Source: Alicyclobacillus tolerans
Lineage (GTDB): Bacteria > Bacillota > Bacilli > Alicyclobacillales > Alicyclobacillaceae
Length of the DNA stretch: 64,000 bases
Direction of reading: 5' to 3'
Assembly (NCBI RefSeq): GCF_001447355.1
Contig: NZ_JXBW01000012.1
Coordinates: 1-64,000 of the forward strand
The notes beneath the pieces were generated by a model. That model was not told the origin of the DNA. It did no database searches and worked only from the letters and a program-made list of their open reading frames with translations. Positions 9,435-50,726 of the stretch are shown here, piece by piece (positions within the stretch are counted from its first letter, which is position 1; every line of letters begins with the position of its first letter). The translations under genes were made by a program, and so were the position numbers.

Positions 9435-10460
9435 TTAACCAATGGGCTTAAGATGATCCATGACAATGGCTGCCGACTGATAATTGTACGGCGATGGATC
9501 AATCCAGAGGTTGCTTTGTGTTGACCAGCCCGTGAATTGTGCGTCGTTGTACTCATACCACAACGCACCGTTGAGAAGTGGAATAACCGGCAGTTGCTCG
9601 GCGGCAATCTTCTCAATCTTGTAGATATCGTTCTTCTGTTGCGTGACGTTTGTCGTCTTGGAGAAGTCCGACAGGGCCGCATCGACCGTCGCGTTCTTGT
9701 ACCCCTCGATATTAAACGAGCCGTTCGAGTCCAGCATGTCGTAATACAAGGTGTATGGCGTTGGGCCGACATTCGTCCAGGAGATGGCGAGATCGTAGGT
9801 TGGCTTCTGCCCTGCGCCAGGATCGATCTGGTTGTAGTATGCCGAATACTGTTCCTGCTGGACGTTGACGTTGATACCAATCTTCTGAAGATCTTGCTTG
9901 ATCAGCAACGCGTCTTCGTCCCAATCGCTCCAACCGGCGACAACCAAGAGATTAAACGACAATTCTTTGCCGTTTTTCGCGAAAATGCCGTTCTTGTCCT
10001 TTTTAAAACCGGCCGCAGTCAACAGCTTGACCGCCTTCGCATCGCTCTGTGTGAATGTTTTGTCGGCGGCTGGCAATTTCGGATCAAGCCAAGACTTCTG
10101 CGGCGGCAATACGAGGCCATTGGGAGATGCGACGCTCTCGTATCCCGTTTCTCCTTTTACCGACAGCTGTGTCCGATTGATAGCCGCGCTGATGGCCTCG
10201 CGCACCGGGAGTTGTGCCAATAGCGGATTGTTCAAATTCGGGTACAGCTCCACTGGGTTGTTGGGCGGAAAGTAGTAGTGATTGTGCTTCGGATTTGCCG
10301 CCACAAACGTCTTCTGAATGTCCGGGATGTTGATTCCTGCGTACTGGATTTGCCCGCTGGCTAGAGCGAGACCGGCAGGTTGGTTGGTCGCGTACGCTGG
10401 ATAACTCAGAATTTGAACCTTCGGAGCCCCGTTGTAATAGCTTGGATTGGCTTCGTATTT
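9435..10460 (-). pseudogene. Peptide-type ABC binding protein, C-terminal fragment
   Basis: This is the C-terminal part of an SBP_bac_5 (OppA/DppA-like) solute-binding protein. Family features include SLLVVAGWSDWDEDALLIKQDLQ-like text near the hinge and the terminal VMDHLKPIG. The reading frame is open back to 10460 but shares no start with the N-terminal half; the first available start inside it is GTG at 10304. A 164-bp partial tandem duplication separates the halves and shifts the frame by two. Deleting one copy would restore a normal protein of about 552 residues. Confidence 0.85.
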
Positions 10461-10624
10461 GCCGCCACAAACGTGTTCTGAATGTCCGGGATGTTGATAC
10501 CTGCGTACTGGATTTGCCCGCTGGCTAGAGCGAGATCGGCAGCTTGGTTGGTCGCGTACGCTGGATAGCTCAGAATTTGAACCTTCGGAGCCCCGTTGTA
10601 ATAGCTTGGATTGGCTTCGTATTT
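10297..10624. repeat. 164-bp tandem duplication (two copies, 5 differences)
   Basis: Copy A is 10297-10460 and copy B is 10461-10624, directly abutting. They differ at five positions (about 97% identity). The unit lies wholly inside the binding-protein coding sequence. Because 164 is not a multiple of three, the duplication breaks the gene. It may be a true duplication or a join between two sequence variants in the assembly. Confidence 0.95.
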
Positions 10625-11257
10625 GACGTCTTGCGTCGAGAAGGACATCAACTTGAACGGGCCTGTACCGATTGCCTTATCGTGCGTGATTTTGGCTTTG
10701 GCGGGGTCGCCAAGGTTCGCCCATTCATGTTGAGGTACGATGTATGTACCGCCAAGCACGTACTGCTCTGCAAAGGGAATATTGGGTTGCTTAAACTGGA
10801 AGACGACTTTGTAGTTTCCTTCCGCTTTCACGCTGGACAACTGTTGCCAGATGCCATTGGTGTCGGCGTCAGGGTACTTCTTCAACTCATCGAATGTGAA
10901 GACCACATCCTGTGCGGTGAACGGCTTTCCGTCCGTCCACTTCGCCTTCGGTTGCAGGTTGACGGTCAACGTCTTATTGCCGTTGCTGAATGTGAAACTT
11001 TTGCCGAGCAAGTCAAACTGCTTGCCAGTCGTGTTGTCGAAATAGAAAAGGGTTTCGTAAATATTGCCCAAAGTACCGGAAACGCTGTTGGTGCCGGCAA
11101 ACGGATTGAAGTTATCCTGCCAGGTAGCCCACACGTTTGGCACGACCGTCAACGTGGTTGGTGCAGATGTTGCAGAAGCTGTCGTAGCAAGCCCCGAGAG
11201 GGAGATCAGCGCTGCCGCAGGCGCTGTTAATGCGACTGCCCATGCCTTTTTTGACAT
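10406..11257 (-). pseudogene. Peptide-type ABC binding protein, N-terminal fragment
   Basis: This is the N-terminal half of an extracellular family-5 solute-binding protein, broken at the duplication. It begins with a Sec signal peptide (MSKKAWAVALTAPAAALISL, then an A-x-A site near residue 30) and lacks a lipobox cysteine, unusual for a Gram-positive binding protein. The family signature LQPKAKWTDGKPFTAQDVVFTF is intact. After copy B of the repeat the frame runs into 17 unrelated residues and stops at 10406. The ATG has a GGGGGA box. No permease or ATPase genes are adjacent, so it would serve a transporter encoded elsewhere. It lies downstream of the LacI-type operator at 11392. Confidence 0.88.
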
Positions 11258-11524: not shown

Positions 11525-12562
11525 TTACGCCCTGCGGAGGCTTGTCGAAAGTTGCGGAGCTGAACCAATACCAATTCTTTTGACACTCGAACGGACCACC
11601 AATTCGATAGGAACCGTCAACACAGCCGGAGGTTTGTTCGGGTTCTGCATGAGCTCAAGTAACTCGTGCCCTGCCATGCGGCCCATTTCCTCTTTATTCT
11701 GACGAATGGTGGTCAAGGCAGGTGTGACATACGCGGCAAGCTGGACATCGTCAAAGCCAATCAATGAAATGTCGTCTCCAGGTGTCAACCCTGCCTCGCG
11801 CAAAGCCCGCATTGCGCCAATGGCCATCATATCCGAAGCGAAAAAAACTGCCGTTGGCAATTCCGGCAAGGCGAGCATTCTCTGCATGGCTTCATAGCCC
11901 GATTCTTCGGTAAAGTCCCCCTCCAAGACCCATTCTGCACGAAATGGCAGACCAAGTTCCTGCATCGCTTGATGATACCCCAGTGTCCGGTCATGTCCAG
12001 GTTTTGTCCCCGTTCTGTCGCCGACGAAACCGATGTAACGATGCCCCAGTTCGGCGAGGTGGCTTACAGCCACGCGGGCGCCGCCAATATTGTCGGACAC
12101 CAGATAGCTGGCACGCGAGCCTAAAAGGTCGAGATCGACCGAGATGATGGGAATACGGCTACGGGAAAGCGAGGTCAGCCCTGGCGATGTGCGGGGTACG
12201 CCGAGCAAAAATAGCCCATCGACATCGCGGTGGCGCGCCCGGGCCTCAAACCCTTGTGGCGTTTTCGATCCGTTGGTGGGCGAGAAAAAGAGCACATCGT
12301 AACCGCTTGCACCCACGACATCCTGAAAACTGGCAATGATATCGTGCAAAAACGGATGACGAAAACCCATTCCGGACTCATCTTGAAAGAAAACACCGAT
12401 GGACATCGATCTGCGCGTGACCAGACCGCGTGCGGCCGCACTCGGCTGGTAACCGAGTTCATTGGTGATGCGTTGCACTTTTTCGCGCGTCTTGGCGCTG
12501 ACATCGGGATATCCATTTAAGACCTTGGAGACAGTTGTAGCCGATACGCCGGCTCCCCTCGC
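11525..12562 (-). pseudogene. LacI-family transcriptional regulator, C-terminal portion after internal duplication
   Basis: This frame encodes a nearly complete LacI/GalR-type regulator from the recognition helix onward: GVSATTVSKVLNG, the hinge region and the periplasmic-binding-protein-like effector domain ending VKRIGIGSAPQL. Core motifs include FVGDRTG, AVFFASDMMAIGAMRAL and DISLIGFDDVQLA. It lacks its own start, because the 277-bp duplication moved the true start out of frame. Removing one repeat copy would give a 352-residue protein from the ATG at 12860. The binding-pocket ligand (a sugar or similar) cannot be predicted. Confidence 0.85.
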
Positions 12563-12839
12563 AAAAGAGCACATCGTAACCGCTTGCACCCACGACATCC
12601 TGAAAACTGGCAATGATATCGTGCAAAAACGGATGACGAAAACCCATTCCGGACTCATCTTGAAAGAAAACACCGATGGACATCGATCTGCGCGTGACCA
12701 GACCGCGTGCGGCCGCACTCGGCTGGTAACCGAGTTCATTGGTGATGCGTTGCACTTTTTCGCGCGTCTTGGCGCTGACATCGGGATATCCATTTAAGAC
12801 CTTGGAGACAGTTGTAGCCGATACGCCAGCTCGCCTCGC
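12286..12839. repeat. 277-bp tandem duplication inside the lacI-type gene
   Basis: Copy A (12286-12562) and copy B (12563-12839) abut and are identical except for two changes near the right end (GGCTCCCCTCGC against AGCTCGCCTCGC). The unit covers the DNA-binding domain and the start of the effector domain. 277 bp shifts the frame by one, so the regulator is interrupted. Confidence 0.95.
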
Positions 12840-12860
12840 AATATCATAGATAGTGGTCAT
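12459..12860 (-). pseudogene. LacI-family transcriptional regulator, N-terminal fragment
   Basis: From the ATG at 12860 this frame encodes the complete helix-turn-helix (TIYDIARRAGVSATTVSKVL) and hinge, then the first part of the effector domain to SGYDVLF. It then enters the second repeat copy in the wrong frame and stops at 12459 after about 133 residues. As written, the product could bind DNA poorly at best, since it lacks the dimerisation and ligand domain. GGAAG lies about 10 bases upstream of the start. Confidence 0.85.
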
Positions 12861-16625: not shown

Positions 16626-17131
16626 CACCCTTTGTCGTTTGGATTCTGGGCCTGACTCAGGGCCTGTTGGACAGCCATCGCGAACGCGTACGAACTGAGC
16701 GTAGCGCCGGAGACGAAGTCCACATTGGCGCTCTGCTTCGCAATCACTTCGTTTGGCAGCACGGGATCGATATCGCTTTGCGGATAATGCGTGTCGCACT
16801 CAGTGATTTCCACCCGCACAATCTTGCCGTTCCGGATTGTCACCGCCACGTCAACCGTGCCTATTTGATCGGATCCCGTGCCTTGATACGTACCATCTAT
16901 GTACTTGGCCAATTTCACGGAGCTTGTCCCGCCGCTGCCGTTTGTGGTTGCATCGTTTGTCTTGTCCGTCAAAGCAGACTCGGCGCGTTGCTGCGTTGTA
17001 TTCGATCCGTTTGGCACGCCGGCCACCGGTTGATCTGCAAATGGTGCGGTGACGGCATAGCCCGCTGCATACATTGCGCCGAGCGCTACCGTGCACATGG
17101 CAATGAGCTGCTTGCTCATTTGCTTGGCCAT
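16625..17131 (-). CDS. Exported FMN-binding domain protein, flavinylation target
   Basis: A 168-residue protein. An N-terminal hydrophobic segment (about residues 7-31) acts as signal anchor, then an Asn/Thr-rich linker, then an FMN_bind domain (about residues 77-165). The flavinylation motif D-F-V-S-G-A-T-L-S places the predicted FMN on Thr144. The domain should face outside, carrying electrons near the wall. The start is taken as ATG 17131 (GGGCGGGTG box 6 bases upstream); an ATG at 17152 is possible. It is the first gene of the apbE/RnfD-like operon. Confidence 0.87.
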   Translation of the reverse strand: MAKQMSKQLIAMCTVALGAMYAAGYAVTAPFADQPVAGVPNGSNTTQQRAESALTDKTNDATTNGSGGTSSVKLAKYIDGTYQGTGSDQIGTVDVAVTIRNGKIVRVEITECDTHYPQSDIDPVLPNEVIAKQSANVDFVSGATLSSYAFAMAVQQALSQAQNPNDKG

Positions 17132-17237
17132 CCACAACACCCGCCCCCACATGAATAAACATTAACCAGTATAGCCTGCCTAGATTGAAAAACGATTGGC
17201 GGTTTAACGATATGTAGGGAAATGCGTGCGACATAGA

Positions 17238-17258
17238 GGCCGACCCCAAAGGTCGGCC
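17238..17258 (-). terminator. Hairpin after the 73-aa protein gene
   Basis: A perfect 8-bp stem (GGCCGACC with GGTCGGCC) and a 5-base loop begins 18 bases after the stop at 17276. There is no T run, so it is a weak candidate terminator. Confidence 0.4.
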
Positions 17259-17275
17259 CCCTCGCCTGTTCCAGG

Positions 17276-17497
17276 TTATTCCTCGATGCCTTTTTCGGTT
17301 TCTTCGACGAAGCCAAGGACAGTGTAAAACTTGCCCTCAAAGCTCGACGCCTCGACGTAGCCGTTGTGCAAGAGGCGATAGATGGCCGTGCGCGCCAGCG
17401 CACCACGGCGGAACTTCGGAGCCCCTGCACTGCTGATGGAGCGCAGGACCCGATTCGTCCGGTTGTCAATGGTCAGAACCACGGTTGCCGTTTTCAC
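17276..17497 (-). CDS. Hypothetical protein, 73 aa
   Basis: A small protein of unknown function that looks coding: GTG start with an AGGTGAAGG region upstream and balanced composition. Residues 1-20 read VVLTIDNRTNRVLRSISSAG, followed by a basic helix-like stretch (RRGALARTAIYRLLHNGYV) and an acidic tail. The basic middle could contact nucleic acid, but no named domain is recognised. It lies between the FMN-binding operon and another small gene on the same strand. Confidence 0.6.
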   Translation of the reverse strand: MKTATVVLTIDNRTNRVLRSISSAGAPKFRRGALARTAIYRLLHNGYVEASSFEGKFYTVLGFVEETEKGIEE

Positions 17498-17615
17498 GTT
17501 CCTTCACCTGCCTTCCTGCCATTTGTGCCCGCCCCATGGAAGCGAACACACCGTATACAATGCGGCCTTGTCCCGGATTGACATGGACAAAACGCCGAAC
17601 GGCGGGAAGAAGGCG

Positions 17616-17660
17616 CAAAACAGGGCGGCTCGCCACACGTGATGGCCAGTCCGCCCTGTG
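17616..17660 (-). terminator. Intrinsic terminator of the 65-aa gene
   Basis: ACAGGGCGG (17651-17659 side) pairs with CCGCCCTGT (17620-17628 side) across a loop that itself contains GGCC/GGCG-type pairing. TTTTGCG follows on the minus strand. It begins 13 bases after the stop at 17673. Confidence 0.7.
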
Positions 17661-17672
17661 TTCAGACAATCC

Positions 17673-17870
17673 TCATTCGACGTCATCCGGGATGCCGGCT
17701 GTCGCCTGCAAATTCCGTACGCGGCCCTCGTCAAGAAAGACGATGCCGTCACTGGTGCCGGCAAAGTAGACATCTCGGATCTGCTCGCGCGTCACGCGCA
17801 GACCTTCACCATCGTCGTGCAAACGATGGTCAACTTCCACCTCTGGCACATACGGCCTCTTCACAGGCAT
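17673..17870 (-). CDS. Hypothetical protein, 65 aa
   Basis: A small acidic protein with no recognised family. GACGGGGGG immediately precedes the ATG, closer than usual, and a good terminator follows, so it is probably expressed. The sequence (HRLHDDGEGLRVTREQIRD, then FLDEGRVRNLQATAGIPDD) is soluble and without membrane segments. Confidence 0.5.
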   Translation of the reverse strand: MPVKRPYVPEVEVDHRLHDDGEGLRVTREQIRDVYFAGTSDGIVFLDEGRVRNLQATAGIPDDVE

Positions 17871-17937
17871 CCCCCCGTCTACCGAATGTGATCGTCATAC
17901 GTAGTGTAGCCGGGAATGGACAATCCATACCAAAGGC

Positions 17938-18552
17938 TTATGCGACCTGCTTCTGCTGTTCCATCACCTTTTGGTGCGAAGGGAGAAACCAAGAGACGAC
18001 AAGCGTCAGCAACCCGATGCCGAACATCGTGATGAAAATATGGTGTAAGGCGTGAGCGAGCATTTGATCGACAAACGCCTTTAGGCCTGCCGAGAGGCCT
18101 GTCGCCGAACCCCCACCGCTGAGTTGGTTCAGAATACCCGTGAGCCGGCTTGAACTGAGCCCTGCTAACCCATTTGCATGTCGCGCGGCGTAATCTTGAA
18201 CTCCTGCGTTAAAGAGTGCCCCGAAGACCGTGACCCCGATGGTTTGCCCGAGAGATCGCGAGAACTGGTTCGAACCAGTCGCCGCACCACGCATTTGCCA
18301 CGGCACCGCCGATTGAATCATGACCGTCGTCGGAGTCGTCACGTAGCCCATACCAAGCCCCATGACCACCATGATGCCGACAAAGAACCAATAGGGCGAG
18401 TGTAACGCGACGGCCAACAACCAGAGCGTTGCACAGGCTACTAAAATAGCCCCAATGACCGTGGTCCGCTTTGCCCCCACCCGATACATGTAACGACCGG
18501 CGAACGCCGAGCCAAGCGGCCAAGCAATCGCCATCGGCGTCATGGTGGTCAT
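17938..18552 (-). pseudogene. DHA2-family multidrug exporter, C-terminal fragment
   Basis: This fragment encodes the last membrane helices of an EmrB/QacA-type (14-helix DHA2) drug:proton antiporter, from MAIAWPLGSAFAGRYMYRVG to the cytosolic end KVMEQQKQVA. The first two thirds of this piece repeat, at about 93% nucleotide identity, a segment also present in the upstream fragment at 18643-18906. The frame is cut off at 18540 where the sequence switches to an inverted copy of the same region. Confidence 0.85.
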
Positions 18553-18906
18553 GGGGCTTGGTTTGGGCTACGTGACGGCTCCGACGACGGTCATGATTCA
18601 ATCGGCGGTTCCGTGGCAAACGCGTGGTGCGGCGACTGGTTCGAACCAGTCGCCGCACCACGCGTTTGCCACGGAACCGCCGATTGAATCATGACCGCCG
18701 TCGGAGTCGCCCCGTAGCCCATACCAAGCCCCATGACCACCATGACGCCGACAAAGAACCAATAGGGCGAGTTTAACGCGACGGCCAACAACCAGATCGT
18801 TGCACAGGCTAATAAAATAGCCCCAATGAACGTGGGCCGCTTTGCCCCCACCCGATACATGAAACGACCGGCGAACGTCGAGCCAAGCGGCCAGGCAATC
18901 GACATC
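18271..18906. repeat. Diverged direct duplication with an inverted segment and a 110-bp perfect palindrome
   Basis: Direct copies at 18271-18540 and 18642-18906 (offset 371) differ at about 17 positions over about 262 bases. Between them, 18541-18642 is an inverted copy of 18643-18745. The innermost 55 bases of each arm are perfect (18588-18697, centre 18642/18643 at TTCGAA). The centre coincides with a natural palindrome of the gene, ACTGGTTCGAACCAGT. The left junction lies in shared TCGGCGTCATGGTGG-like sequence, consistent with template switching. Confidence 0.93.
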
Positions 18907-19817
18907 GGCATCAGGGTGAGACCCGAGCTGGTTGCGCTGTGTCCAAGTATGGTTTGGATCCACATGGGCAGATAAACGTTGGCGCCAATCAACACGAAAC
19001 TCGAAAGAAAGCCGATGATGTTTGATACGGCGATGACCGGGTTTGAAAACAGGCTCAGTGGCAACATCGGCTCTTTTGCCACTCGCTCGATCCAGACGAA
19101 ACCTGCAAGAAAAACTGCAGCCGCGACAAACAGACCGATGATGGTACCGCTATCCCACGCGTATTGACTGCCACCATTCAACAGCGCGTACAGTAAAGCA
19201 GATACGCCGACGGTGAAGACGGCCGCCCCAAGATAATCGATAGATTTGGCGTGCCGTTCAAACTTCTCATGCAAGAACAAGAGCACTAGGACAAACGACA
19301 CAGCACCTACCGGCACGTTGATATAGAAGATCCAGCGCCAGCTGACGTGATCGACAAACAACCCACCGACAAGAGGTCCGAGCAGCCCAGCCACACCCCA
19401 TACGGAGCTGAATAACCCTTGCATACGTGCGCGCTGTTCGCCAGGAAAGAGGTCGCCGATGATGGTAAACGTGATGGGCATCACGGCGCCGGCACCAATC
19501 CCTTGGAACGCGCGAAACCAGACCAATTCCGTCATGTTCTGTGAAGCACCGGAAAGCGCAGAACCGAGAACGAATAGAATAACACCAATGCTAAATATGA
19601 CTTTCCGGCCAAAGAGATCGGCCAACTTGCCGTAAATGGGCGTCGTCACACTGGTTGTCAAGGTATAAATGGCAAACACCCAACTATAAAGGCTAAGACC
19701 GTGCAATTCGCGCACGATGTGTGGCATCGCCGTACTGACGACCGTGACGTCGATAGCGACGAGGAACACGGCGACCAACATCGCAACCGTCACCATTTGG
19801 CGGTTTGTGTGTCGCAC
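18591..19817 (-). pseudogene. DHA2-family multidrug exporter, N-terminal fragment
   Basis: This fragment encodes about eleven helices of an EmrB/QacA-like exporter. It carries the MFS motif A region (GKLADLFGRKVIF), the motif C of antiporters (GPLVGGLFVDHVSWRWIFYINVP) and an intact first helix with acidic residue (LVAIDVTVVSTAMP). The GTG start has GAGGAGGG upstream. At the palindrome centre (18642) the frame leaves the gene and ends 17 residues later. If the repeat were collapsed, the protein would have a normal length of roughly 480 residues. Confidence 0.88.
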
Positions 19818-19909
19818 TCGAGATTTCCCTCCTCAATTCATTCGTAAACAACTCGCCGCCTCACCATACCGGACTCCCTATACATTTTCAAGTGGGTTTT
19901 ACAGCATCG

Positions 19910-20770
19910 TCAAACGTTTAACTGTAGATTGTCGATCAGTCGCGCCTTGCCGAAATACGCCGCCACCGCGAGCATTACATCGCCTTCGATCACGTCGATC
20001 GACTCCAAATCGGGAAGCGACACGACCTCGGCATAATCAAGACGAGCGATGGGATCTGCTGCAATGCGCTCACGCATGCCGGATGCAATCGCCTTGCCAT
20101 CGCGATTACCATTCGCGATTTGCTCGCGCGCCCAGCTGAGAGTGCGGTAGAGTATAGTCGCGTGATCGCGCTCCTCGGGAGAAAGGTAAATATTGCGCGA
20201 ACTTTTCGCCAGCCCGTCGGGCTCGCGTACCGTCGGCACGGAAACAATCTCGATGGGCATGTTCAAATCGGCGACCATGCGACGGATAATGGCGAGTTGC
20301 TGGCCGTCTTTTTGGCCAAAACACGCCACATCCGGTGCCACGATGTGAAATAGCTTCGAGACGACAGTTGCAACGCCAGCGAAATGGCCGGGACGCGTTT
20401 TCCCACATAGCTTTGCAGCCATGTCTGGGAGCTGCACGGTCGTCGCCATCGGCCGCGGGTACATCTCGGCAACCGCCGGCGTGAACGCAACATCGCACTG
20501 ACCGGTCGCGGCGAGTAAGCGTAGATCGCGGGCGAGATCGCGCGGATAGCTACTCAAGTCTTCATTGGCACCAAACTGCAGCGGATTGACGAAGATACTG
20601 ACGACGACAAAATCCGCCTCGCGACTTGCGGCTTCGACCAACGCGAGATGGCCCTCGTGCAGATACCCCATCGTCGGCACGAGCGCGATCCGCTGGCCAT
20701 TAGCTCTTGCCGTTGAGACCGCTTGGCGCAAGTCGAGAATGGTTTCACTTTGCCTAAACGGCTTAGCCAC
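19910..20770 (-). CDS. panC: Pantothenate synthetase (pantoate-beta-alanine ligase)
   Basis: A 286-residue enzyme joining pantoate and beta-alanine with ATP to make pantothenate. Diagnostic motifs are VPTMGYLHEGHLALV (HxGH nucleotide binding), FVNPLQFG, the loop KTRPGHFAGVATVV, FGQKDGQQLAII and SSRNIYLS (KMSKS-like). The start is most likely GTG 20770, 8 bases after AAAGGG; GTG 20779 is possible. It overlaps the end of panB by 8 bases. panD, needed for beta-alanine, is not in this window. Confidence 0.96.
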   Translation of the reverse strand: MAKPFRQSETILDLRQAVSTARANGQRIALVPTMGYLHEGHLALVEAASREADFVVVSIFVNPLQFGANEDLSSYPRDLARDLRLLAATGQCDVAFTPAVAEMYPRPMATTVQLPDMAAKLCGKTRPGHFAGVATVVSKLFHIVAPDVACFGQKDGQQLAIIRRMVADLNMPIEIVSVPTVREPDGLAKSSRNIYLSPEERDHATILYRTLSWAREQIANGNRDGKAIASGMRERIAADPIARLDYAEVVSLPDLESIDVIEGDVMLAVAAYFGKARLIDNLQLNV

Positions 20771-21632
20771 GACGCTCACCCTTTCTTTGCAACAAATCGA
20801 GAAACGCCTCTTGTTCGCTGGCCTGTAGATGAACAGTCTGCTCTTCACCTGGGAAGGCACCGCTTTTTACCTCATCGACATACTGCCGTGCAGCCGTTAC
20901 GATGGTCTCGGCAATGGAAGCGTACCGCTTGTTGTGCTTGGGAATGTACCCTGACGTGTATCCGATGAAATCGTGGAAGACGAGCACCTGACCGTCGCAC
21001 TGAGGCCCAGCGCCGATCCCGATGGTGGGAATCGTGAGCTGCTCGGTCACCGCAGCGGCCACTTCCGCAGGTACAGCCTCAAGGACGATGGCAAACGCCC
21101 CTGCTTCCGCAAGCGCCTTTGCATCCTCAATCATGCGCATGGCTGCATCGGCCGTCTTTCCTTGCACGGCAAACCCGCCAAACGCGTGTACAGACTGCGG
21201 CGTGAGGCCGATATGCCCCATCACAGGAATGCCCGCCCGTACAAGTCTGGCAATCGTCGGCGCCAGTTCCCTGCCGCCTTCTAACTTCAAGCCATGCACG
21301 CCACCTTCTTGCATCATGCGGGCTGCACTGCGCATGGCGTCTTCGGGTGACACCTGATAGGTTAAGAACGGCAGATCGGCAACCACCATCGCACCGTTTG
21401 TCGCGCCGCGCGACACCATACTCGCATGGTAAATCATCTGATCCAACGTCACAGGGACAGTTGTCGTCTGCCCTTGCACAACCATGCCAAGCGAGTCGCC
21501 AATCAACAATATATGCACGCCTGCTTCCGACAACAGATGCGCCGTGGGATAGTCGTACGCCGTCATCATGGCAATCTTTTCGCCAGCTTGCTTCATCTTG
21601 GCGAGTGTTCGCACGGTTACGTTCTTTGCCAA
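20763..21632 (-). CDS. panB: 3-methyl-2-oxobutanoate hydroxymethyltransferase
   Basis: A 289-residue TIM-barrel enzyme that transfers a hydroxymethyl group from methylene-tetrahydrofolate to 2-oxoisovalerate, giving ketopantoate. Motifs seen are MTAYDYPTAHLLSEAGVHI, GDSLGMVVQG (metal Asp), KLEGG, MGHIGLTPQSVH and GIGAGPQCDGQVLVFHD. The start is TTG 21632 with GGGGGAG 6 bases upstream. Only one base separates it from the stop of the DUF2520 gene, indicating translational coupling in a three-gene pantothenate operon. Confidence 0.96.
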   Translation of the reverse strand: MAKNVTVRTLAKMKQAGEKIAMMTAYDYPTAHLLSEAGVHILLIGDSLGMVVQGQTTTVPVTLDQMIYHASMVSRGATNGAMVVADLPFLTYQVSPEDAMRSAARMMQEGGVHGLKLEGGRELAPTIARLVRAGIPVMGHIGLTPQSVHAFGGFAVQGKTADAAMRMIEDAKALAEAGAFAIVLEAVPAEVAAAVTEQLTIPTIGIGAGPQCDGQVLVFHDFIGYTSGYIPKHNKRYASIAETIVTAARQYVDEVKSGAFPGEEQTVHLQASEQEAFLDLLQRKGERRG

Positions 21633-21633
21633 T

Positions 21634-22563
21634 TTAGTCTCCCCCTGTTTCAGATCCAAGCCATTGCATAAATTCGTCAGCTTGTGCCGCACCGATGCTC
21701 CCCTTCGCCTCGGCGATAGGCACCGTTGCCCGCGCCAATGCGAGGTAAACGGCGCGCGCCTCAGGATGACCCATGAGAACCTCGAGGTGTTTCGCCACAG
21801 TTGCGACGTCTCCTCGTTCGATGGGCCCGGTGAGCGCCTCGGGAATGCCCAGCCGCTGCACGTTGTCGATGGTGCCACGAACCAAAGGCAACAGGCTGCG
21901 CACGCCGTCTGGCAGTGGGGCCAGCCGCGAAGCTGTTGCCAAAAGTGCCACCAAGGCGTTTGAGGCGAGAGCCGCCGCGGCGTGGTACGCGACCTTGTCC
22001 TCGGCAGCCAACACGAAAGGCTGGCTCCCCCACCGCCTTGCCCAAGCAAAAGCTGCCTGCACGACGTCGGGATGGCCCTCCACGGCGATCGCGATACCTG
22101 ACAAGGCCTTGGCGCCATCTCCATGATCCGCAAACGTCTGCAGTGGATGCACACTGCCCACGCGAGCGCCGCAATCCGCAGCTGCGGCGAGGGCTGTGCT
22201 CGCCAGCGCTCCCGATGTATGGATGACGATTTGTCCGGGGCGGATCGCGTCGAACTCGCACAGTTGCGCGGCAACGCTCACAATTTCGCGATCCGGAACT
22301 GTAATCCAAATCACATCCGCAGCGCGAGCCACTGGGGCGGCGTCACGCCAATCCAACACAGACACGCCGGTCCTTTGTCGAAAAGCGAAAGCACGGCGAC
22401 TGCCCTCGTCCTTGCGAAAAGCGCAGAGGATATCGGCCCCCATCTCTTGGCAAGCACAGGCCACAGCCGTTCCCACCCTGCCGGGGCCCACGATGGCCAT
22501 CGCAAGAGACTCTGGTTTCATCGTCTGCTTATAAGCTGCCAATTCGCGTTTGACTCCTATCAT
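21634..22563 (-). CDS. Rossmann-like DUF2520 protein, candidate PanG-type ketopantoate reductase
   Basis: A 309-residue protein with an N-terminal NAD(P)-binding Rossmann domain (AIVGPGRVGTAVACAC at about residue 22) and a helical C-terminal DUF2520 domain. It heads the panBC operon. Ketopantoate reductase is the missing step between PanB and PanC, and no panE-like gene is nearby. PanG of Francisella, a known alternative ketopantoate reductase, has this type of architecture as far as I recall. HTSGALAS and SVHPLQTF are recognisable family blocks. The ATG 22563 has GGAAGTGA upstream. Function is inferred from context. Confidence 0.8.
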   Translation of the reverse strand: MIGVKRELAAYKQTMKPESLAMAIVGPGRVGTAVACACQEMGADILCAFRKDEGSRRAFAFRQRTGVSVLDWRDAAPVARAADVIWITVPDREIVSVAAQLCEFDAIRPGQIVIHTSGALASTALAAAADCGARVGSVHPLQTFADHGDGAKALSGIAIAVEGHPDVVQAAFAWARRWGSQPFVLAAEDKVAYHAAAALASNALVALLATASRLAPLPDGVRSLLPLVRGTIDNVQRLGIPEALTGPIERGDVATVAKHLEVLMGHPEARAVYLALARATVPIAEAKGSIGAAQADEFMQWLGSETGGD

Positions 22564-22756
22564 GGCATCACTTCCGCAGGTAATTGTACCAATCTTCCAT
22601 GAAAATGTGGAAACGTGTGTGAAGTATAAGGTGGAACGGGTATAGCGCGCCTTCGCCAGTGGCACACCAGATTGTAAGGCATCCGTCGCAGATGAAACGG
22701 ATACTTTTGCTGAACCCGCTTTGGACCCGAAGATCATCCACCTTGGGGGAATCGAT

Positions 22757-23107
22757 ATGGAGAAATGGCTACAGTCCGCTGCTTCGGTACCTAAATACGC
22801 GCGGTTATGTGGGCTCATCGCACTTTCCATCGCTATTTTGTGCGCCATCGCTCCCACGTTTGGCGTATTGCGACTTGAACCAGCGGCCGTCGTGCTTGGT
22901 GCCATCGCCTTGTTCGGAGGCTTTCGCGGCGTCGGCGCGGGAATCCTCGTCATGTGTGCGATGGATCTCATTTTAAGTCCAGCGTTTTGGACAAACGTCA
23001 CCTGGGCGACCAGTCCCTATTCCGTCGTCGATCACTCGCTCGCATACTTTGACGTCGTGGGTATCATTGCCATGTCGGCACTTCTCTTTAAACGCCCTCA
23101 TGGTTGA
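22757..23107 (+). CDS. Small multi-pass membrane protein, 116 aa
   Basis: Three to four hydrophobic helices (about residues 14-32, 36-50, 52-70 and 97-112) and little else. TTGGGGGA lies 6 bases before the ATG. No family is recognised. It faces away from the pantothenate operon and lies 47 bases upstream of an MFS transporter on the same strand, so the two may be cotranscribed. Confidence 0.7.
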   Translation: MEKWLQSAASVPKYARLCGLIALSIAILCAIAPTFGVLRLEPAAVVLGAIALFGGFRGVGAGILVMCAMDLILSPAFWTNVTWATSPYSVVDHSLAYFDVVGIIAMSALLFKRPHG

Positions 23108-23154
23108 ACGACGCACCTTATGTTCGGTGTGCAAGGCCTGGGAGGGGATTTGCC

Positions 23155-24414
23155 ATGCAGGTTAGTAAACGGTGGGGCATCATGAGCATCGCAACGATTC
23201 CACTCATCATAACCCTGGGCAACGCCATGATGATCCCCGTACTCCCCATCCTTCAACGTCAGCTCCACATTAATGCGGTCCAAAGTAGCCTCGTCATCAC
23301 GGCGTACTCGATCATCGCGATCGTCCTCATTCCTGTGGCAGGATTCATCTCGGATCGGGTGGGCCGCAAACGCGTCATTCTGCCTGCACTTGGGGTCACG
23401 GCCGCGGGCGGATTGATTGCAGGCATGGGAGCCAGTCTCTTGCACAGTTATGGCTGGATACTCGCAGGGCGCTTCATCCAGGGCGCCGGATCGGCCGGAG
23501 CCATGCCCATCGCGATGCCACTTGTCGGGGATATGTTAAAGCGCGATGAAGATGTGAGCAAGGCACTAGGTACCATCGAGACGTCCAACACGTTGGGCAA
23601 AGTGCTAAGCCCCATCCTTGGCGCGGCACTGGCTATGTGGGTGTTTTCGTTACCGTTTTACGCCATTCCTGTGCTGTGTCTCATCTCCGGCAGCATGGTT
23701 GCATTATGTGTCCGCGTGCCTAAACACGATGCTGAGAAACCCCCGCATCCAGTCCGCGTAGCCGTGTTACTGTCCCTCTTGCGCAAGCATCTGCGCTGGT
23801 TATCGGCTGTGTTTGTCATGGGTGCCTTGGCCATGTTCGTTTTGTTTGGCACACTTGTCTATTTGTCAGACAGGCTGGAGTCGACTTGGAACTTAGATGG
23901 CATCTTAAAGGGATTGGTTCTCGCGGTTCCACTTTGCTGTTTGTGCTTGACCTCCTATCTGGTCGGGCATATCATCAGCGATCGCGCACGTCGCATGAAG
24001 TACGCTACAGTCGGCGGCGGGCTCGTCGCATGCGGCGGCTCAGTCAGCGGTGCGATGGTACCTGGCGCATTTTCGCTCGCCATGTCCGTTTGTGTTATCT
24101 GTATTGGCATTGGTGCGGTTCTGCCAGCCGTCGGCGCGCTTATTACAGAAAGCATTGACAAAGAACAACGTGGTTCCATCACATCGGTGTATACCAGCAC
24201 TCGCTTCTTAGGCGTGGCCGCGGGCCCCTTCACCGTGTCGCTGTTATCTGCCCTTGGGCAAGTCTGGGTGTTTGGGCTCATGGCAAGCCTGTGTCTGTTG
24301 GCCGCATTGTACAGCATGCGGGCGATAAAAGTCGGCGCCGATGGACATGGGCGAACGAAGATGATGCAAAGTGGCGCTTCTCGACGGCCCATACGTGTAA
24401 AAGGCATGCCGTAA
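23155..24414 (+). CDS. MFS transporter, DHA1-like
   Basis: A 419-residue twelve-helix permease of the major facilitator superfamily, closest to the Bmr/TetA drug:proton antiporter branch. Motif A is GFISDRVGRKRVILP, and the fifth-helix antiporter region reads TLGKVLSPILGAALA. A GGAGGGG box precedes the ATG at 23155. The basic C-terminal tail is cytosolic. A drug substrate is typical for the family but cannot be shown. Confidence 0.88.
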   Translation: MQVSKRWGIMSIATIPLIITLGNAMMIPVLPILQRQLHINAVQSSLVITAYSIIAIVLIPVAGFISDRVGRKRVILPALGVTAAGGLIAGMGASLLHSYGWILAGRFIQGAGSAGAMPIAMPLVGDMLKRDEDVSKALGTIETSNTLGKVLSPILGAALAMWVFSLPFYAIPVLCLISGSMVALCVRVPKHDAEKPPHPVRVAVLLSLLRKHLRWLSAVFVMGALAMFVLFGTLVYLSDRLESTWNLDGILKGLVLAVPLCCLCLTSYLVGHIISDRARRMKYATVGGGLVACGGSVSGAMVPGAFSLAMSVCVICIGIGAVLPAVGALITESIDKEQRGSITSVYTSTRFLGVAAGPFTVSLLSALGQVWVFGLMASLCLLAALYSMRAIKVGADGHGRTKMMQSGASRRPIRVKGMP

Positions 24415-24509
24415 CTCTCGGGCAGGATACGCCAGACCGTACGTAAACCGCCGCCTTTAATACCCAACAATTTACACGCCATTTCGCTGGCGATCCCTTG
24501 CGAAACGTG

Positions 24510-24750
24510 TTACACTGACGAACACAAACTCCTGTGATGTTGGTGGGACATTTTTTGGTTTTAATCTATGGCGAGTAATATGGGAATCCGACTCCAGCTT
24601 GAAGATGCCATGCCTCCGTGAGTGGAAGGTTGAATCAAGCGATAGGATACCCACCTGTGAGAGCAGGTTCAAAACCGATTGTCCCACGGCAGAACGGGGT
24701 ACATAGGAAGCCGTTTCTCAATGTGCGAAGCATTGGGAGGCGGTTTTTTG
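24510..24750 (+). ncRNA. ssrS: 6S RNA (RNA polymerase-binding regulatory RNA)
   Basis: A rod-like RNA can be drawn from about 24525 to 24710. Pairings are TCCTGTG (24530-24536) with CATAGGA (24702-24708), GTGGGACA (24543-24550) with TGTCCCAC (24680-24687), GGTTTT (24557-24562) with AAAACC (24671-24676), TGGGAATCC (24581-24589) with GGATACCCA (24645-24653, one mismatch) and GCTTGA (24597-24602) with TCAAGC (24635-24640). The open middle has a free 5' strand (24563-24580) opposite a small ACCTG/CAGGT hairpin, the layout of the 6S central bubble that mimics an open promoter. TACACT (24511-24516) is a plausible -10 box. A terminator hairpin (24711-24743, T6) ends it. Confidence 0.75.
24711..24749 (+). 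terminator. Terminator of the 6S RNA transcript
   Basis: A 13-bp stem with G:U pairs (24711-24723 with 24731-24743), a 7-base loop TGCGAAG, then six T residues. Confidence 0.88.
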
Positions 24751-50682: not shown

Positions 50683-50726
50683 CATACTACTCACCAGAGG
50701 GATCGAGCCCTCTGGTGAGTAGTATG
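50683..50726 (-). promoter_or_regulatory. Perfect 19-bp inverted repeat between binding-protein and permease genes
   Basis: Two perfect 19-base arms (50683-50701 and 50708-50726) enclose a 6-base loop ATCGAG. No T run follows. Such hairpins downstream of binding-protein genes stabilise the upstream mRNA and reduce permease expression. Confidence 0.8.

Follow-up and report, generated by a model that had tools for sequence, protein, structure and literature searches.

Small inverted triplications (DUP/INV/DUP, or SIT) have been described in the genomes of cancers and yeast; in the published account, the direct copies have a median length of 148 bp and the inverted piece of 160 bp, the junctions carry a median of 6 bp of microhomology, and a palindromic flap or a self-folding end is proposed as the start (PMC13334657). 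The same account reports that such structures, placed on a plasmid in E. coli, disappear progressively over a matter of days (PMC13334657). Among the library artefacts on record are chimeras of the fold-back and palindrome type (PMC10908179), as well as palindromic chimeric reads (PMC6218980, PMC12870357), and low-quality contig ends that block merging have been described for gap closing (PMC2884544). A study of Salmonella takes longer microhomology at a junction to indicate that a rearrangement is true; its cut-offs were about 7-9 bp in the first screen and 11-12 bp for those duplications and inversions that were confirmed (PMC3411829). Here we describe a direct-inverted-direct structure within a bacterial exporter gene, which probably is an artefact of sequencing and assembly, i.e., a product of chimeric, poor-quality joins in a draft genome.

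The window, by which we mean the whole stretch of 64,000 bases that was analysed (G000:C4:1-64000), belongs to a 2.81-Mb draft assembly of 55 contigs, G000. The exporter gene lies on the minus strand with its start at 19817, and its product is a DHA2/EmrB-type efflux permease: the segment 18591-19817 of the minus strand matches TIGR00711 with 255.5 bits (cut-off 230.2), and the match of the exporter to MFS_1 has E of 5e-58. The gene is broken by the structure. We searched 61 genomes at the DNA level, including the one that contains the window, and obtained a match with E of 0.001 or better in 51 of them. The two closest relatives found, both of the same genus, are G003 (97% DNA identity) and G011 (84%), and in each the exporter is a single continuous frame of 502 amino acids, so that the normal gene in related genomes, which the first-pass annotation had named as half of what would speak against a genuine rearrangement, is indeed there. 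No local repeats were found around the exporter in 20,000 bases of G003 or in 19,001 bases of G011. The nearest named record is from Alicyclobacillus sendaiensis, with 79% protein identity, in a scan that may omit records very near the window.

Comparison of the window with itself gives a direct repeat between 18264-18547 and 18635-18918 (284 bp, 94% identity, 17 differences, no gaps, spacing of 371), a pair of inverted arms, 18534-18643 and 18642-18751 (110 nt, 95%), which overlap and form a palindrome, and a second inverted pairing, of 18264-18380 with 18534-18650 (117 nt, 96%). Counted outwards from 18642/18643, the arms of the palindrome pair perfectly over 55 bases; the first mismatch is at 18698/18587, and five mismatches occur out to 18751. 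Read along the minus-strand gene, the sequence is normal as far as about 18642, is turned back for about 108 bases (18534-18641), and resumes 284 bases further upstream, at 18547, to end near 17938. The 5' part of the exporter upstream of the changed stretch (18837-19817, minus strand) is intact, with its TIGR00711 and MFS_1 matches, and is colinear with the exporters of G003 and G011. It is followed by copy 2 (18642-18918, minus strand; its alignable extent begins at 18635), the inverted piece (18534-18641, where the gene sense is on the plus strand), copy 1 (18264-18547, minus strand), and the 3' part of the gene (17938-18263, minus strand), the latter included in an open reading frame of 204 amino acids (17938-18552) that matches TIGR00711 positions 296-485. 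The order of segments and the inverted piece of about 100 bases are thus as the first-pass annotation had described them; the ends that it gave, 18271-18906, delimit the core of the structure, but the alignable edges are at 18264 and 18918.

The annotation had also placed the centre of the palindrome on a natural palindrome of the gene, and this is confirmed: the fold centre at 18642/18643 sits on the 16-bp palindrome ACTGGTTCGAACCAGT (18635-18650), which has another copy in the window at 18264-18279 and occurs once in G003, within the normal exporter. The exact sequence of ACTGGTTCGAACCAGT was not found in G011. Microhomology at the other junction, likewise anticipated, amounts to 9 bp at the join of copy 1 with the inverted piece (18535-18543): in G003 letters, TCGGCATCA is common to both parents, and the version in the window has one base changed. 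Chance is no option for the exporter structure, given the numbers of repeats found by the same criterion in the window and in the rest of the genome (see below).

We polarised the differences between the copies with G003 as the reference and G011 as the second; these two relatives have the same letter at 16 of the 17 sites. Eleven differences are changes in copy 2, all within 18664-18836, with the ancestral sequence from 18837 on. The other six are on copy 1, all within 18491-18543, i.e., at 18491, 18507, 18523, 18531, 18539, and finally 18543, where copy 1 has the inverted piece's own letter. Away from the joins, each copy matches G003 or has its difference from G003 in common with the other copy, and the sites where both differ from G003 together (18403, 18405, 18439, 18448 and 18475 in copy-1 coordinates) are five cases of ordinary species divergence. 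There are no own changes in 227 bases of copy 1 (18264-18490) and none in 82 bases of copy 2. The inverted piece has two private changes, 18563 and 18578, and three in common with copy 2 (18539/18746, 18610/18675 and 18621/18664); the copy-2 changes 18698, 18710 and 18712 are absent from it. A one-pass fold-back copy, in either direction, was considered and rejected, as these three changes of copy 2 and the two private ones of the inverted piece have no match in the other arm.

What emerges is a patch of about 345 bases around two joins, filled with changes that stop on either side. Every change in the exporter scar is a substitution, with no indels, and about 5% of the bases around the join are affected, or about 1 in 20. 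With a background of 146 changes in 9,823 sites, 11 changes in 195 bases compare with 2.9 expected (P 2e-4), and 4 changes in 48 bases with 0.7 expected (P 0.006), both stretches having been picked after seeing the data. This background consists of G000-specific changes located in the window between 9.5 and 21 kb, the scars excepted, of which 57 were assigned to codons in mapped genes and 89 of the 146 were unassigned.

The kind of change was examined in 17 events (11 in copy 2, four in copy 1 and two private to the inverted piece), leaving aside 18539 and 18543, which are inside the join. They are distributed over first, second and third codon positions as 12/3/2, against 10/3/44 for the 57 background changes, a strong contrast at the third position (Fisher P 2e-6). 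The contrast in transitions to transversions is modest (7:10 in the scar, 104:42 in the background, P 0.02). The excess at first codon positions, 12 of 17, has P of 0.002 when compared to one third, and was noticed post hoc; within 18664-18836, first positions account for eight of the 11 changes in copy 2. Five of the 17 changed sites are invariant among all 25 homologues compared, and the new base is absent from all 25 at nine sites and present in at least one at eight. By these distributions, the scar changes are unselected and indifferent to the reading frame, with the first-position excess left over. We also considered, and set aside, the new residues as loans from natural variation in the family, using the protein alignment and the 25 homologues base by base: a few coincide, but most conserved sites do not.

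The exporter structure has company. Under a criterion of at least 100 bp, at least 90% identity and a distance within 2 kb, the window contains the exporter structure and two direct duplications, while the rest of G000 that was compared (59 stretches, 1,147,670 bases) contains one case, on contig C9. None was found by the same criterion in 286,281 bases of G003, nor in 57,003 bases of three other relatives; looser criteria recover further, more diverged repeats in both G000 and G003. One of the two duplications, 10280-10464 / 10445-10628 on the minus strand (185 bp, 96%), splits a gene for a family-5 solute-binding protein. Polarised with G003, its left copy is changed at 10335, 10372, 10379 and 10404 and its right copy at 10475, near the join, with three additional differences in the crossover zone. 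The other, 12286-12564 / 12563-12841 on the minus strand (279 bp, 99%), breaks a LacI-family regulator gene, and its two changes by the same polarisation are confined to the final 14 bases of its left copy, again near the join. Both duplications are absent from G003 and G011, and neither is part of what the first-pass annotation had described here. The three scars span 8.6 kb, all three host genes are broken, and the joins have microhomology of 9, about 5 and 2 bp. The scars themselves apart, these 8.6 kb have no excess of changes of the sort that a region-wide mutation shower would leave.

The case on the 4.5-kb contig C9 is a duplication of 281 bp (92%), 1190-1470 / 1412-1692, in clpC; it is in frame, with a spacing of 222 bp, yields three Clp_N matches, and has changes flanking the join on both sides. 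The picture is less tidy than in the other cases, because around the join the natural Clp_N repeats themselves resemble each other and bases 1412-1470 are part of both copies. The two copies differ at 23 sites; the letter of G003 is that of the left copy at 14 of them, that of the right copy at eight and a third one at the remaining site, and many of the 23 are at third codon positions, unlike the changes of the exporter scar. This duplication is possibly another scar, blurred by the natural Clp_N repeats.

Some other features of these sequences may be mentioned. In the window at about 21251-24220, identity with G003 drops abruptly from about 96% to about 75-80%, and is back to 95% at 24458-24745; G003-specific changes outnumber G000-specific ones, and by this comparison the tract looks like an import, mainly in G003. 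A long array of diverged repeats, with offsets that are multiples of about 66 bases, is found at about 17019-20000 of the stretch G000:C2:40001-60000 and reaches the end of the stretch examined. The window also has a 44-base palindrome (95%) at 50683-50726, perhaps a terminator.

Several explanations may be offered for the exporter scar. The first-pass annotation had suggested that copy 1 and copy 2 might match two different strains; more broadly, the two copies and the inverted piece could come from two or three strains or paralogous genes, joined by the assembler or by recombination. The copies do differ by 6%, and the three versions make a mosaic. In a mixture, however, each copy would be expected to resemble one allele over its full length, and what we find is that both are ancestral away from the joins and changed beside them, so that the changes sort by distance from the join and not by copy. 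Most of them also hit the first or second position of a codon, in contrast to the background divergence, most of the new bases (nine of 17) are absent from all 25 homologues, and the assembly has no second copy of the exporter gene, the next match, on C12, being 65% alike. We consider this origin very improbable. An old duplication in a dead gene, drifting without selection, would agree with the broken state of all three scarred genes in the window, but changes accumulated by drift would be scattered through both copies and the remainder of the broken gene, and the clean 227 bases of copy 1 and 82 bases of copy 2 away from the joins make it scarcely credible. A further reading is a real event in the cell, which we think unlikely. 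Replication through the region would have switched templates several times in one lineage, with highly error-prone synthesis around every switch, and broken three genes. At the exporter, by this doubtful route, the growing strand would have turned back at the 16-bp palindrome, used itself as template over about 108 bases, re-annealed via the 9-bp microhomology and continued, and in the neighbouring genes, with just as little likelihood, it would have slipped back 164 and 277 bases. Such a burst of replication-based rearrangement would have left, within 8.6 kb, a fold-back triplication and a pair of short tandem duplications, each wrapped in substitutions; conceivably, though we doubt it, this would be the equivalent, in a bacterium, of template-switch bursts in which mutations cluster. 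The direct-inverted-direct order with microhomology is that by which small inverted triplications are defined, and the architecture equals theirs (PMC13334657). The scars are clustered, with three of them in 8.6 kb and a single one in the 1.15 Mb compared outside, and changes flank the new junctions on both sides, the pattern to be expected if synthesis across a switch is error-prone. As a weak additional point, the genome has no match to SbcC or SbcD over the curated cut-offs (passed by one and eight of 14 controls, respectively), and the palindrome might be tolerated. The 9 bp of microhomology at the exporter falls between the first-screen and the confirmed cut-offs of the Salmonella study (PMC3411829). 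Against an event in the cell stand the similar scar in clpC on another contig, the progressive loss of such structures from the E. coli plasmid within days (PMC13334657), and the inverted piece, which does not inherit the changes of its template one-way, having three in common with copy 2 and private ones on both sides. About 5% of changed bases in one pass also speaks against this route, as bacterial translesion polymerases are not known to err so often.

The template switching primed by a hairpin that the first-pass annotation proposed is supported as far as the shape goes, which fits it or a fold-back chimera; the accompanying scars and the unselected changes point to assembly. The sequence is normal away from the joins and wrong at about one base in 20 beside them, by substitutions only and irrespective of codons, and the same is repeated in neighbouring genes; this combination suggests unmerged low-quality ends together with a fold-back chimera, and we infer that the scars arose in the tube or in the computer, not in the cell. 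Errors in low-quality short reads are typically of this kind, substitutions and not indels. A chimeric molecule or read probably formed by folding back at the natural palindrome and the 9-bp microhomology, and, together with poor-quality sequence at the two fragment ends, probably served to link two parts of an ordinary DHA2 exporter gene. Left unmerged, the stretch in which these two parts overlap would give the direct repeat, the fold-back part would give the inverted piece, and base errors at about 5% would surround the join. The two nearby direct duplications would be made by the same kind of faulty join, and so, probably, would the duplication on C9. As an artefact would lead one to expect, the locus is normal in relatives, the changes are frame-blind and crowd at the joins, and further scars occur in this assembly and none in the 286,281 bases compared of the sister genome. 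Several points do not sit well with an artefact. With one scar in the 1.15 Mb compared elsewhere, an ordinary artefact rate does not suffice for the three in 8.6 kb, and a local cause, e.g., low coverage, must be assumed; yet the stretches between the scars are clean, which might not be so if coverage were broadly low. Microhomology of 9, about 5 and 2 bp also fits biological joining. From the three changes common to the inverted piece and copy 2 it follows that some of the changes either were older than the fold-back copying or were carried over in it, and 12 of 17 changes at first codon positions is beyond random error.

If the scars are artefacts, the breaks that this draft shows in the genes for the multidrug-type exporter, the solute-binding protein and the LacI regulator are false, clpC may contain a stretch that does not belong to it, and surveys of gene loss or of palindromes that use the genome would be misled. 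If they are true in the cell, they record a burst of error-prone template switching in a bacterium. The combination used here, polarising by a sister genome and testing for crowding at joins and for disregard of the reading frame, is usable for sorting such scars elsewhere.

Compared with known systems, the exporter scar is like each of them in part. With the fold-back or palindromic chimeric reads of library preparation or whole-genome amplification (PMC10908179, PMC6218980, PMC12870357) it shares an inverted piece joined at a palindrome, a mismatched palindrome and microhomology; unlike those reads, it is part of a finished contig, is flanked by an unmerged direct repeat and is accompanied by plain direct duplications. 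A gap-closing error, in which overlapping contig ends are badly merged and a false duplication results, would likewise have a direct repeat with differences concentrated at the meeting ends, and the two siblings without inversion are of this form, whereas the exporter scar has an inverted piece between the copies. The quasipalindrome-associated template-switch mutation also turns at an inverted repeat, but in the available accounts it homogenises short inverted repeats that already exist (PMC7202029, PMC8604942), and the exporter scar amounts to a new 108-base arm and an insertion of 371 bases. The small inverted triplications are alike in the order of segments, in sizes of a few hundred bases, in microhomology and in the palindrome at the turn (PMC13334657); the exporter scar differs in the dense changes at its joins, in the plain duplications that neighbour it and in its bacterial host, and is known here from assembled sequence.
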